From a virus: a stretch of DNA of 28,238 nt. Of the stretch, positions 7,058-17,543 are shown piece after piece. The translations under genes were made by a program, and so were the position numbers. Each line of letters begins with the position of its first letter. Position 1 is the stretch's first letter. Below the pieces are notes generated by a model. It was not told the origin of the DNA. It worked only from the letters and a program-made list of their open reading frames with translations, and made no database searches. The stretch lies in IMG/VR virus record IMGVR_UViG_3300027141_000017, positions 1-28,238 of that record, one strand, 5' to 3'.

Positions 7058-7194
7058 TAGCGGCCTTGCCCCCGCAGTGGCTTGCGGCCGCGGCGCCGTG
7101 GGCGGGACTGCTGTCCATACCCTTGGCGTGTGGTCTTTGGTGGACCGGGCTGGTGGTCGATCCGAGCGGTGCCGGTCTTCGACTTCACTGCCAT
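7057..7194 (-). CDS. 45-residue basic protein, unknown function
   Basis: This gene reads MAVKSKTGTARIDHQPGPPK then TTRQGYGQQSRPRRRGRKPL and RGQGR. It is extremely basic, with about a third Arg or Lys, and is likely disordered. Similar proteins with a 'KSKTGTARI.HQPGPPKKTRQG' start and a 'YRGQG' end recur in cyanophage genomes as hypothetical proteins, from memory. The charge suggests binding to DNA, RNA or the negatively charged cell wall, which is inference. The start ATG 7194 overlaps the upstream stop by 10 bases and the stop forms TAATG with the next gene, so it fits perfectly between two otherwise separated genes. Confidence 0.72.
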   Translation of the reverse strand: MAVKSKTGTARIDHQPGPPKTTRQGYGQQSRPRRRGRKPLRGQGR

Positions 7195-7505: not shown

Positions 7506-7641
7506 GGTGATGCGAGCCGTGGGTGAAGTTTAGGTGAGATGGCAAGTGAAGGCACTGCCGGATCTGCGCCTTGCGCTGTTCAATGCGCTCCCGGCGCTCA
7601 GGATCGAAGTCCTTAGTGAGTTCGGAGAAGGGGCGCGTCAT
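7486..7641 (-). CDS. short antitoxin-like N-terminal fragment
   Basis: A 51-residue frame begins MTRPFSELTKDFDPERRERI and continues 'EQRKAQIRQ' before turning into a non-matching tail (CLHLPSHLNF...RYP). The first 29 residues look like the N-terminal helix of XRE-type antitoxins of the HigA family, which typically begin R-x-F-S-E-L-x-x-x-x-S-P-E-R-x-x-R-I. The helix-turn-helix that should follow is absent, so this is either a decayed antitoxin gene, a recombination scar, or a minimal protein that reuses the helix. It lies between the tail fibre and the DUF7936-like gene, overlapping the latter by 20 bases, and is too short for routine gene calling. Confidence 0.5.
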   Translation of the reverse strand: MTRPFSELTKDFDPERRERIEQRKAQIRQCLHLPSHLNFTHGSHHHAQRYP

Positions 7642-7668
7642 CTTGCCAAGGTGAGATGTGAGTAGGAC

Positions 7669-9447
7669 TTATGGCTCTAGAGCGGTAACACGAGCCTTCA
7701 GGCTTTCGATCTCAGCTAAAGCTTCCTGCAGCGCAGCGGTCAGCAGCGGCACCAGCTTGGACTGGTCGATGCCTTGGTAGACGGGGTTGCCGTCAGCATC
7801 TATTTGATCTTTGGCTCCAGTAACTGCTTCAGGGACAATGTCCTGGACTTCATGAGCAATAAAACCATCAACAGTTTGCTCTGGAAATTCGACAAAGTTA
7901 AATCTGCTTGGTTTTAGGCTTGATACTTTGTCCGCAGCATTGCTAATCGGTGCAATATTTTCTTTTAAGCGGTAATCGGAAACAGAGCCATAGGTGGTGG
8001 TGGCACCAGAGATAGAAATGTAACCACGTTGAGATGTGCCTGAATAAAGAGCAACAACTTCTCCATCATTGCTTCTTCCGAAGTAACAAGTAGTCGCTGC
8101 AGTGCGGTGCGCGCTAATAGAACCACTGGTGCCAAAGCCCACTCCTGTAGTGGATGTACCAACTCCTGGAAAACTTGTAGCACCAATGAGTACCAGCCCG
8201 CCACTGGTAATCCTCATTTGCTCCGTGGGAGAAGACGCTCCATCGGCGGTAGTGGAGAACACTAACCTCGTCGGCTGGCTAGATCCAGATGTCCATGTTC
8301 CACCGTCTCGGTAACTTTCAATGCTTGCTGCTGTTATATGTCCGCTATCGGTAAAACGAACTTCCCCTAATGCAGAACCATTGGCGGGAGAAGACTCACC
8401 ACGAGAGAGCTTAAGAATTCCCTGCCCTGTTGTACCGATAGAGCTATTTCCTTGAGCCTGAATTGTGCAAGCCTGAGTAGTCGAAGACGTGCCAACTAAG
8501 AGCCTGCCGGAGCTGTCGATGCGGGCGCGTTCTGTGCCTCCATTAGTGCGAAATATGTGGCCATCACCGATCCCTGCGTCATAAACAACATTTCCGGATG
8601 CGTCGATAGAAAAATCACCTTCACTTGCTCCGGAGATTCGAAGTGCGCCAGTGGAACCAACGGCAACTTCTAATATTTTGCTAGGCGTCTGAGTGCCAAT
8701 CCCTACTCTCCCTTCCGAAGTAATCCGAAGTCGTTCAACCGGAGTGCTAACAACGCTGCCATCTTGAGTAGCAAATGCTAAGTATGCGTCTGGAGTCGTA
8801 TCCGCAGCAAATGCGCCAATGTACGCCTTAACACCGGCTCCGGGAGTAGAAGCGTCGCTTGAATAAAATTCAATCTTGCCTATTTGTTGATTTGCTTCAG
8901 TGCTTACATCTGTATCCGTAAAACGAAGCGTGTTGTTCTCAGTTACCGCATCATTGCTGCCAGCAATTTCTAGTTTTGTGTTAACGCTACTAGTCCCCAG
9001 ACCTACCCGCCCACTGGAGTCAACAAATACGCGACCAGATCCGCCGGTCGTGATTGCAAACTGGTCAGCGCCGGGACTGTAGATGCCGGTGTTGGTGTCG
9101 CCGGTGAAGTAGATGGCCGGGCTGGCTGCACTGCCCAGCGGGATGCCAACGCCGGTAGAGATCGTTGCGGTCGGGATCGTGACGGTGCCGGTGAAGGTCG
9201 GGCTGGCAAGCGCCGCGAGGCCGAGGTTGGCAGCCGTCAGATCGCCAACTGTGATGAAGGAGCTGTTGGCACCATTGCGCAGCTTCAGCAGGTTGGTGCT
9301 GGTGTCCGCCCACCACTGATAGGCATAGGTGGTCGATGGAGCACTCGCACCGCTGTTGTTGGTAACGATTGCTGCGAGGCCATTGTTGATATCGGAACGG
9401 ACGGCAGCGCCAGTACCGTTAGCGATCACATAGTCGTGCTGAGCCAT
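7669..9447 (-). CDS. tail fibre with C-terminal self-cleaving chaperone (peptidase S74)
   Basis: The protein (592 residues from ATG 9447) starts MAQHDYVIANGTGAAVRSDI, the usual opening of cyanophage-type tail fibres; ATG 9462 would add five residues. The N-terminal part (about 1-100) should attach to the tail. The middle contains repeated short beta motifs such as 'NTGIYSPGADQF', 'SSGRVGLGTSS', 'SEGRVGIGTQTP' and 'SSGRLLVGTSS', typical of trimeric fibre shafts. The last 103 residues are an intramolecular chaperone: 'SDYRLKENI' has the catalytic Ser and Lys at the spacing (S+5=K) known from endosialidase-type fibres, followed by 'DGFIAHEVQDIVPEAV' and a terminal coiled coil. The chaperone should cut itself off after trimerisation. 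The middle is markedly AT-richer than both ends. Confidence 0.9.
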   Translation of the reverse strand: MAQHDYVIANGTGAAVRSDINNGLAAIVTNNSGASAPSTTYAYQWWADTSTNLLKLRNGANSSFITVGDLTAANLGLAALASPTFTGTVTIPTATISTGVGIPLGSAASPAIYFTGDTNTGIYSPGADQFAITTGGSGRVFVDSSGRVGLGTSSVNTKLEIAGSNDAVTENNTLRFTDTDVSTEANQQIGKIEFYSSDASTPGAGVKAYIGAFAADTTPDAYLAFATQDGSVVSTPVERLRITSEGRVGIGTQTPSKILEVAVGSTGALRISGASEGDFSIDASGNVVYDAGIGDGHIFRTNGGTERARIDSSGRLLVGTSSTTQACTIQAQGNSSIGTTGQGILKLSRGESSPANGSALGEVRFTDSGHITAASIESYRDGGTWTSGSSQPTRLVFSTTADGASSPTEQMRITSGGLVLIGATSFPGVGTSTTGVGFGTSGSISAHRTAATTCYFGRSNDGEVVALYSGTSQRGYISISGATTTYGSVSDYRLKENIAPISNAADKVSSLKPSRFNFVEFPEQTVDGFIAHEVQDIVPEAVTGAKDQIDADGNPVYQGIDQSKLVPLLTAALQEALAEIESLKARVTALEP

Positions 9448-9482
9448 CAGACTTTCAGGCAATGCCTAGATTCTTGCAGGAT

Positions 9483-15285: not shown

Positions 15286-17543
15286 TAGTTGAGCAAGCCT
15301 CCTGGGCGCTTCTGGATCACGATCTCATTCTTGACGGCTTCGCTAATTGCCCGGCCGAACTCGGCGCCTTTGGCGTTATCACCTTGCACGCTGGTGCCGC
15401 TGGCGTCAACATTTACCACCACGCTGACAGCACCGCCACCGTTGGTGGCCTGTACTCCAAGCCGGCCATCACGGCCGCGGCGCAACGGCATGATTGCCTC
15501 AGGTCCGGCCTCGCCCATCAGGCCGATGCCATTGGCGAAGGGGAACATCGTCGGCTTATCGACGATGCCGCCACGGGCGAACTTCTGGATGCCGTTCTGG
15601 GCGAAGACGTTGCCCATGGCGCTCGGCTTGATATTGAAAATATCCATCACGCCACCCACCAATGGCTTGATGATGGCCTGCCGGATCGCGATGCGAGCAA
15701 TGTCAGCGATGATGCTGTTGGCCAAATCTGCGAAGTTTGCTTTGCCGGTGGTGACAAAAGTGGTCAGCTGATCCTCAAGGCCTTGGAAGGTATTGACGAC
15801 GGCATCCCCAACTTGAGCGCCGAAGTTGCTGATCGATTCATAGTAGGCCTTGATCTTCTCATTAAAGTTCGCGCCAAAGCTATCCTCCTGCTCCTTTTGT
15901 TTCTTGTTGGCATCATCAAGTGCAGCAGCACGATCACGAAGCAGGCGGATGTGCTCAGCTAGCGCGGGGTTCGTAGCAGCTAAGATGTCAAGCTGCAACA
16001 GGTTGATCTGAGCGTTCAGCTTCTCAACTTCAGTCAATACCTTCTTATCGTTTTGCACCTCGCGAATCTTTGCGTCATAGTCATCAAGAGATGGCAGCAG
16101 ATCTTTGAGGCCTTGCGTTAGCTGCTGATTTGCTAGCTCTGTATTTGCTTTGGAAAGTTGATTGATCAATGTTTCGAGCGGCTTCACGTTCATCTCGCCG
16201 CCAGCCGCTCTGATGTCACGGAACAACTTGACGACCTGCTGCGTCAGATCATCAACGGTTCGATCGTTCTCACGAATGGCTTCAGTACGATCGGCCAGCA
16301 GTTTCTCCACTGGCGTGCCGCCAACATTGGCGAACGCCGCGTTGGCATCCTCTACCTTTCGACGCAGGCTTTCCTGCAGATCCACCAGCTGCTGCGTCAA
16401 TGTGTTGCGACGTTGCTGCAGTCTCTCGGCTTCGTTTGCAGCACGCTTAGCCTCCGCAGCGGCTCGCGCATCCGCCCCGCTCATGTCCAGTGCTGTCCGC
16501 CCAGTGCGGCGCCCGGTGCCTGGGGATGGGGCATCCGTGAACAACCGCTGGAATTGACCCATGTTGGCTTGGAAGCGCTTCATGAAGTCAGCGCCAAAGC
16601 GGTCGGCCTCAGCCTGCGCACCAGCAAAGTCGCCCTTGAATGCCAGCGCAGCTCGTTTTGCAAAGGAACCGATCAACCGAACAGCTTCATCGACGAGCTT
16701 GACCATGCCAAGCAGCACAGCCGCCACGCTGCGAATGCCGAGCTTGATGACATTGAACAGATCAGTCCAGTCCGTCTTGCTGTCAAACAACTCGCCGAAC
16801 ACTTCGATGATTGACTGCAGAGCGGGGAGCAGCGCGTCGGTCAACTCCATCCCGAAGCCTTGAGTCTTGATCCCAAACTCGGTCAGCGTGTCATTGAACA
16901 GATCAGATCGAGCGGCGAAGTCGTCGGAGATCTTGTAGGTGAACTTCTCCATGCTGGCCGCGCCTTCATTCAGCAGCGGAATCAGCTCAGCACCGGACTT
17001 GCCAAACAGAGCCACGGCAAGCTGTGCCTTCTTCGCCCCATCGGGCATATCGGCAAACTTATCCGCGATCTGCTTGAGCGCTTTATCGGTTGGGATCAGT
17101 TGACCGTTGGCGTCCTTGGCTGTGACTCCTAACTGCTTGAGGAGGCGCTGCATGTCGTCGTTGCCCTCCGCTGCCTTCACCAGGTTCAAGTTCAGCTTGT
17201 TGATGCCCTTGCCCAAGCTGCCCATATCAACATCGGCCAGCTTTGCGGCATTGCCGATCCCGGTCAGCGCGACAGCGGCGATGCCAGTCTTAGCTTGAAG
17301 GTTGAACAGCTCATCGCCGGCGTCGATAGATTTCTTCACAATTGCCGAGAGGCCGCCAACGATTGCACTCCCAGCGATAGCTGCACCAAAGCCAGCGACG
17401 GCACCCTTCAGACCATTAAATGACATGGCGGCGTTCTTGGCCTGCCCCTGCAATCCCTGCATGGAATTGCCAAGCCGTCGAATATTGTTTTCGCCTTGAA
17501 CGTCTGCCTTGATCCGCAGCATGGCATCCATGTTCATCGCCAT
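15285..17543 (-). CDS. tail tape measure protein
   Basis: The 752-residue protein is largely alpha-helical with long coiled coils, and sits in the tape-measure position between the tail chaperones and the M-like gene. A hydrophobic glycine/alanine segment (about residues 45-70) follows an N-terminal part beginning MAMNMDAMLRIKADVQGENN. Residues about 370-560 form extended coiled coils rich in Gln, Arg and Glu. The C-terminal section 'FGAQVGDAVVNTFQGLEDQL' to 'IARIAIRQAIIKPLVGGVMD' matches the lambda tape-measure C-terminal family. Known tape measures give about 0.15 nm of tail per residue, suggesting a tail near 110 nm. The coiled-coil part is less GC-rich than its neighbours (25 of 60 bases in 16021-16080). 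Confidence 0.93.
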   Translation of the reverse strand: MAMNMDAMLRIKADVQGENNIRRLGNSMQGLQGQAKNAAMSFNGLKGAVAGFGAAIAGSAIVGGLSAIVKKSIDAGDELFNLQAKTGIAAVALTGIGNAAKLADVDMGSLGKGINKLNLNLVKAAEGNDDMQRLLKQLGVTAKDANGQLIPTDKALKQIADKFADMPDGAKKAQLAVALFGKSGAELIPLLNEGAASMEKFTYKISDDFAARSDLFNDTLTEFGIKTQGFGMELTDALLPALQSIIEVFGELFDSKTDWTDLFNVIKLGIRSVAAVLLGMVKLVDEAVRLIGSFAKRAALAFKGDFAGAQAEADRFGADFMKRFQANMGQFQRLFTDAPSPGTGRRTGRTALDMSGADARAAAEAKRAANEAERLQQRRNTLTQQLVDLQESLRRKVEDANAAFANVGGTPVEKLLADRTEAIRENDRTVDDLTQQVVKLFRDIRAAGGEMNVKPLETLINQLSKANTELANQQLTQGLKDLLPSLDDYDAKIREVQNDKKVLTEVEKLNAQINLLQLDILAATNPALAEHIRLLRDRAAALDDANKKQKEQEDSFGANFNEKIKAYYESISNFGAQVGDAVVNTFQGLEDQLTTFVTTGKANFADLANSIIADIARIAIRQAIIKPLVGGVMDIFNIKPSAMGNVFAQNGIQKFARGGIVDKPTMFPFANGIGLMGEAGPEAIMPLRRGRDGRLGVQATNGGGAVSVVVNVDASGTSVQGDNAKGAEFGRAISEAVKNEIVIQKRPGGLLN

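Follow-up and report, generated by a model that had tools for sequence, protein, structure and literature searches.

Short slot-specific DNA linkers mark exchange points between AT-rich cassettes in the tail fibre gene of a probable Synechococcus phage

How does the base composition of a single open reading frame come to change abruptly partway along and then change back? The question is raised by the tail fibre gene of a viral fragment of 28,238 nucleotides (IMG/VR record IMGVR_UViG_3300027141_000017), the whole of which was analysed and is referred to here as the window. The fragment encodes a lambda-like tail (J, minor tail protein L and tape measure) together with capsid and portal proteins, and endolysin and dCTP deaminase genes sit downstream of the fibre gene. 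Its best capsid matches are the cyanosiphoviruses S-CBS3, S-CBS1 and S-LBS1 (52–55%), which points to Synechococcus or one of its close relatives as the probable host. A C-terminal Peptidase_S74 domain places the fibre among tail fibres with an S74 intramolecular chaperone, and its translation probably starts at an ATG at 9447 (consensus MAQHDY) rather than at a TTG at 9462. The main parts of the locus are as follows.

7669–9462, minus strand: tail fibre gene with C-terminal Peptidase_S74 chaperone; 597 aa if read from the TTG, 592 aa if read from the ATG at 9447, the likely start
9007–9462, minus strand: constant N-terminal part, residues 1–152, with genome-like GC and DNA common to near relatives
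7819–7980, minus strand: Peptidase_S74 (chaperone of endosialidase) domain, PF13884, residues 495–548, E 3e-11
7641–7875, minus strand: right junction zone, in which identity with relatives returns at 7641, 7669, 7742 or 7875

A sequence-only reading of this DNA had described an AT-rich block within the frame, covering the shaft and most of the S74 domain, and had proposed that the receptor-binding half was swapped in by recombination, with junctions near 9060 and 7800. Its 60-base G/C counts are exact (40 at 9121–9180, 38 at 7741–7800, 23 at 8881–8940 and 24 at 7921–7980), and the AT-rich part does comprise the shaft (residues ~158–495) and most of the S74 domain. The lowest-GC stretch of 1,215 bases in the window is 7778–8992, at 48.2%; stretches of the same width elsewhere average 60.3% (sd 1.9), with a minimum of 54.6% in the tape-measure gene. 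A maximum-likelihood fit of two change points within the fibre gene placed the edges at 7797 and 8984 (log-likelihood gain 12.5), with 48.0% GC between them and 60.4% in the rest of the gene. The left edge lies at about 8984–9006 and not at 9060. GC at third codon positions (GC3) is 0.75–0.85 over residues 41–120, 0.30–0.47 over residues 161–560 and 0.63 at the end, as against 0.67–0.83 in 13 other listed genes of the window. Because third positions drop too, amino-acid content alone does not account for the change. Nor does a fibre in this genome need low GC3, because GC3 stays near 0.7–0.79 in short fibres of ~314 aa from related phages. Six related phages (L091, L099, L101, L119, L129 and L131) and their like have at the equivalent position an alternative fibre type of this sort, ~314–319 aa long and with a genome-like GC3 of 0.71–0.76. 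A second, milder dip lies in the tape-measure gene (15601–16500, 53.6%), and the lowest 1,215-base stretch outside the fibre block starts there, at 15602.

Four proteins (fibre, J, endolysin and DUF7936) served as queries in scans that gave 285 loci including the window's own; DNA matches were inspected for 28. One contig, L002, is the same phage (100%), and the J proteins of the relatives compared are 95–100% identical to that of the window. DNA identity with the window ends at 8977–8989 in six relatives (L006, L010, L011, L016, L082 and L127) and at 9035 (L015) or 9238–9302 in others, with L083–L089 at 9251–9302; the L051 contig stops within the fibre gene, at 9069. Identity returns within the right junction zone, as scored where the relative's contig extends far enough, and L086 regains it only at 7179. 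Close relatives are thus near-identical outside the fibre and different within it, which supports exchange of the block. The proposed swap holds in that the distal fibre has been exchanged, but not as one event with two junctions, since there are several left and several right junctions and, as described below, conserved linkers inside the block.

Those linkers emerged from a comparison of 131 distinct fibre genes, each 250 codons or longer, drawn from 199 loci with a hit to the N-terminal part. Across most of the shaft, the sharing of 15-mers with the 130 other fibres is zero or near zero, and it rises in four spikes. These spikes, the linkers, divide the AT-rich part of the window's fibre as follows.

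8992–9006, minus strand: linker 1 core GTAGGTCTGGGGACT (VGLGT), found unaltered in 34 of 131 fibres; bounds the exchanged block on the left
8707–8991, minus strand: cassette 1, AT-rich; over most of its length no 15-mer common to the 130 other fibres
8692–8706, minus strand: linker 2 core GTAGGGATTGGCACT (VGIGT); exact in 44 of 131 fibres
8533–8691, minus strand: cassette 2, AT-rich; no 15-mer in common with other fibres until near linker 3
8485–8532, minus strand: linker 3 ERARIDSSGRLLVGTS; 96–100% in S-CBP4 and S-CBP42
8485–8499, minus strand: linker 3 core TTAGTTGGCACGTCT; found unaltered in 65 of the 131 fibre genes
8269–8484, minus strand: cassette 3, AT-rich; few or no 15-mers in common
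8209–8268, minus strand: linker 4 RLVFSTTADGASSPTEQMRI; 3' half divergent in the window
8244–8258, minus strand: linker 4 15-mer TCTCCACTACCGCCG; exact in 43 of 131 fibres
7981–8208, minus strand: cassette 4, AT-rich, reaching the S74 domain (by GC3 profile and 15-mer sharing)

The window holds each linker once, on the strand of the fibre gene, and the edge found from composition alone (8984) falls 8 nt from the linker 1 core. A second 15-mer of linker 4 is absent from the window even at 2 mismatches. Five linker 15-mers recur exactly in 34, 44, 65, 43 and 50 of the 131 fibres, against means of 0–0.15 in 20 synonymous-codon shuffles; for the linker 3 core the shuffles gave 0, and a sixth 15-mer, in the 5' part of linker 3, occurs in 29 fibres versus 0.45. 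Column profiles over non-redundant contexts (n = 39, 81, 79, 61 and 65) show 15-nt cores conserved at ~83–100%, flanks that mostly fall to 30–60% and additional conserved 5' extensions in linkers 3 and 4. The reading frame of the linkers is constant in all fibres that bear them, as is their order from 1 to 4 but for two fibres, one with an extra fourth and one with an extra second copy; 40 of the 131 fibres have no linker.

This conservation is frozen at the level of codons. Fibres that share the five-residue peptide of a linker encode it with the same DNA in 33 of 35 (linker 1), 43 of 55 (linker 2) and 64 of 73 cases (linker 3), compared with 0 of 29 for the control peptide SDYRL in the S74 domain and 1 of 101 for GTGAA in the N-terminus; of 159 peptides that occur in 30 or more fibres, the top four in DNA conservation are all linker peptides. 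In viral contigs, a pattern scan for the linkers turned up at least 119 stretches, and the pattern used had no match in bacterial and archaeal genomes representing 84,980 species. Across 416 loci, there are 323 copies of the linker 3 core (at most 1 mismatch) in 299 frames, only 3 of which are shorter than 200 codons; each of these three touches a contig end or lies no more than 2 nt from one.

Among 209 linker 3 sites, 51 pairs have one 150-nt flank scoring at least 85 (identity times coverage), and the other flank is unrelated (below 40) in 43 of them and similar in 8. In an anchored comparison, which is inflated right at the linker because the linker itself counts as shared, so that the count of 43 versus 8 is the fair figure, discordance was seen in 0 of 10 pairs at 60–180 nt downstream of linker 3, within the cassette, and in a share of 0.06–0.41 at 60–210 nt upstream. 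Shared blocks (ungapped, at least 90% identity, at least 100 nt, ends counted within the shaft) break in DNA common to both parents: 198 of 286 right ends fall at the 3' edge of a core (random mean 20.1, maximum 34 in 500 trials) and 28 of 103 left ends at the 5' edge (random mean 5.4, maximum 11 in 500 trials). With duplicates collapsed, the counts are 115 of 181 and 24 of 84. Left ends meet a core less often (27%) than right ends (69%), an asymmetry that may be partly due to linkers 3 and 4 reaching 5' of the core. Over all high-scoring segment pairs, including those beyond the shaft, the enrichment is weaker (26% within 15 nt versus 12% at random), and the median distance of 186 nt exceeds the random 102 nt, in our view because the N-terminal and S74 domains hold many of the ends; our conclusions rest on the shaft-restricted counts.

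Exchange also respects position. Fourteen blocks span from core to core, and all 14 occupy the same slot in both partners; for 9 of them no upstream similarity was found (2 of these 9 have only ~150 nt upstream to compare), and one pair has upstream GC of 0.53 and 0.38. A further comparison gave 18 pairs with at least one internal cassette in common at 80% or more, all slot to slot, although a few of the pairs have two or three cassettes in common and are simply related phages. The fibre pairs compared here are not independent of each other.

Could the linkers instead be frozen by selection on DNA or RNA that has nothing to do with recombination, such as translation pacing or RNA structure, with crossovers merely tolerated at domain edges? 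A structure model of the window's fibre (AlphaFold; mean pLDDT 63.9, pTM 0.31) places the cores where short predicted strands precede each run of longer strands. This pattern speaks for such selection and would fit module seams, but the model is of low confidence and is not relied on. Selection for domain edges alone would lead one to expect neither the same synonymous codons in unrelated phages nor identity blocks that stop precisely where the frozen core ends on its far side. We regard this alternative as unlikely.

The linkers also change how the AT-rich composition is to be read. We compared GC3 with that of the carrier genome in the 107 of 131 fibres that had enough upstream sequence and length. 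In the 77 with linker 3, shaft GC3 is 0.43 ± 0.04 while that of the upstream gene ranges over 0.41–0.83 (slope 0.08, p 0.09), although their N-terminus does track the upstream gene (r 0.59); in the 30 without linker 3, shaft GC3 tracks the genome (slope 0.55, r 0.83). Shaft GC3 in linker 3 fibres is independent of the carrier genome, and AT-richness is therefore a property of a shared cassette pool and not the mark of one recent import. Had an AT-rich donor recently supplied the receptor-binding half in a single swap with two junctions, the sharp composition edges and the near-identical flanks in relatives would be accounted for. Such a swap is nevertheless highly improbable: most fibres of this type in the set share the composition step, conserved linkers lie within the block, and cassettes move singly. 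No donor of the whole block turned up either, because a search with the shaft alone returned 12 loci, of which one is the identical contig L002 and the rest share only 42–68% protein identity. Relatives thus do share the step, but the two parts of the gene do not have a single common history.

Most of the sequences are metagenome contigs, and assembly might have joined unrelated fibres at the repeated linkers. Usual assembly k-mers are longer than 15–20 nt of identity, which counts against such chimeras, and some arrangements recur in separate contigs. Cultured isolates have the linkers and show exchange, which argues against an artefact; we consider this explanation barely credible. Linker 3 (at most 2 mismatches) is present in 8 of 13 fibres of cultured Synechococcus phages (S-CBP42, S-CBP4, S-H1, S-RIP1, DSL-LC07, S-LBS1, WH11-B and S-CBP3), occurs with 3 mismatches in S-CBP2 and S-N03, and was not found at the 3-mismatch threshold in S-CBP1, S-EIVl and S-CRES2; the S-LBS1 fibre has linkers 2–4. 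S-CBP42 and S-RIP1, which their records assign to different genera, share 530 nt at 89.4% identity from a point no more than 1 nt off linker 4, and before that have only a 36-nt match, at linker 3. Similarly, S-CBP3 and S-CBP4 share 370 nt at 97%, after which they match just briefly, at linkers 3 and 4 or close by. Incongruent fibre phylogeny has been reported in a comparison of cyanopodoviruses (PMC4646655).

What could join two genomes at sites this short? A 15-nt core offers little homology to ordinary RecA recombination. One near relative of the window phage carries candidate enzymes.

L424:3254–4746, minus strand: overlapping RecT-like and exonuclease VIII genes in the L084 record (37 kb), from a phage closely related to that of the window

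In that record, whose J is 97% identical, the matches are to phrog_561 (RecT-like, 2.7e-75) and phrog_412 (exonuclease VIII, 1.1e-100), and Pfam RecT alone is below its cut-off. Rad52-like phage recombinases, including RecT, act on short, diverged homologies during lytic growth, according to the part of PMC3945230 available to us. Across 16 records, which may be fragments, Pfam RecT exceeds its cut-off in 1, matches weakly in 4 more and has no match in 11; a single phage-coded recombinase is therefore not universal. ERF was found in 0 of the 16 possibly fragmentary records. A diversity-generating retroelement was considered as well and rejected, with reverse transcriptase (PF00078) found in 0 of these 16 possible fragments.

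Short, sharp-edged and nearly invariant cores might also be recognized by a site-specific recombinase. Shufflons and invertible fibres (R64 pilV, Mu/P1 Gin/Cin) use inverted sites, alternative ends in one genome and a dedicated recombinase. Like them, the window's fibre has short repeated sites inside an adhesin gene with a variable C-terminal part, and in cultured S-LBS1 a Phage_integrase gene directly follows the tail fibre (L301:4437–5291). Unlike them, no dedicated recombinase common to the 16 records was found: integrase (PF00589) occurs in 3 and serine resolvase (PF00239) in 0, in records that may be fragments. The four cores, moreover, differ in sequence, and core-to-core exchange was same-slot throughout. 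A shufflon- or invertase-like mechanism is accordingly very unlikely.

Taken together, these data favour piecewise shuffling of the fibre, in which cassettes are exchanged at slot-specific linkers by short-homology recombination, a reading to which we assign a probability of about 0.72. The shaft and receptor-facing half would consist of AT-rich cassettes set between four slot-specific DNA linkers. When two phages share a cell, their genomes would be joined by recombination within a matching linker, so that one cassette, or everything beyond a linker, would be replaced in register and in frame; the fibre would therefore change with its fold unbroken. We infer that the joining step is probably annealing-type recombination within the linkers, favoured because of the RecT-like and exonuclease VIII genes of the near relative and because RecT acts on short, diverged homology; a RecT-like protein and an exonuclease would perform the single-strand annealing. 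Linker identity would persist because recombination needs a matching pair of linkers and copies them every time, and the cassettes would determine the choice of host receptor. A broader proposal, possible but doubtful, is an address-coded exchange system, in which unrelated cyanophage families keep four slot-marking linkers under DNA-level selection for exchangeability, and one cassette pool of distinct base composition moves between podoviruses, siphoviruses and possibly myoviruses.

To our knowledge, chance together with selection is the usual account of why exchanges between unrelated phages preserve the reading frame and the fold. Mosaicism of phage fibres is well known; in the present case the points of crossover are directly legible in the sequence, reappear in different phage families and have frozen synonymous codons. 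Such points make in-frame exchange testable by ordinary recombination assays and long reads, and the linkers offer a DNA handle for tracking a pool of receptor-binding parts common to Synechococcus phages. Unrelated phages likewise swap fibre parts, with the constant N-terminus staying with the virion, in P2/Mu/lambda-like (Haggard-Ljungquist 1992, as cited in PMC3945230) and T4-like (PMC2993671) mosaicism; unlike what the portions of these sources at hand describe, the window's fibre has several short, frozen, slot-specific linkers and cassettes that move singly. Relaxed recombination (PMC3945230) resembles the present case in that short homologies recombine in lytic growth, RecT and exonuclease pairs handle diverged sequence, and lambda side-tail-fibre genes are among the loci used. 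It differs in that the portion available deals with homology regions in lambdoid phages and does not describe codon-frozen linkers. A low-GC fibre gene is already on record for the cyanosiphovirus S-LBS1 (53.8% versus 60.2% for the genome; PMC6157547), where the part of the paper seen does not mention linkers or cassettes. Ongoing exchange of fragments within tail-fibre proteins is likewise described in part of PMC10684548, a protein-level survey whose main text lacks the words linker, cyanophage and Synechococcus. A search of open PubMed Central titles and abstracts found no paper describing such linkers, which, with subscription papers and preprints outside its scope, is weak evidence of absence.

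Two further features of the fibre set concern the linkers themselves. Several long fibre frames (L338, L370, L365, L305 and others) hold two or three copies of the linker 3 core, and fibres could have grown in this way by unequal exchange between linkers. In the N-terminal third of many fibres, for example at the peptide IYFKDS, the sequence TACTTCAAGGACAGC is conserved as DNA in 36 of the 49 fibres that hold YFKDS; the window's sequence differs there, and the stretch may represent another linker upstream of linker 1.
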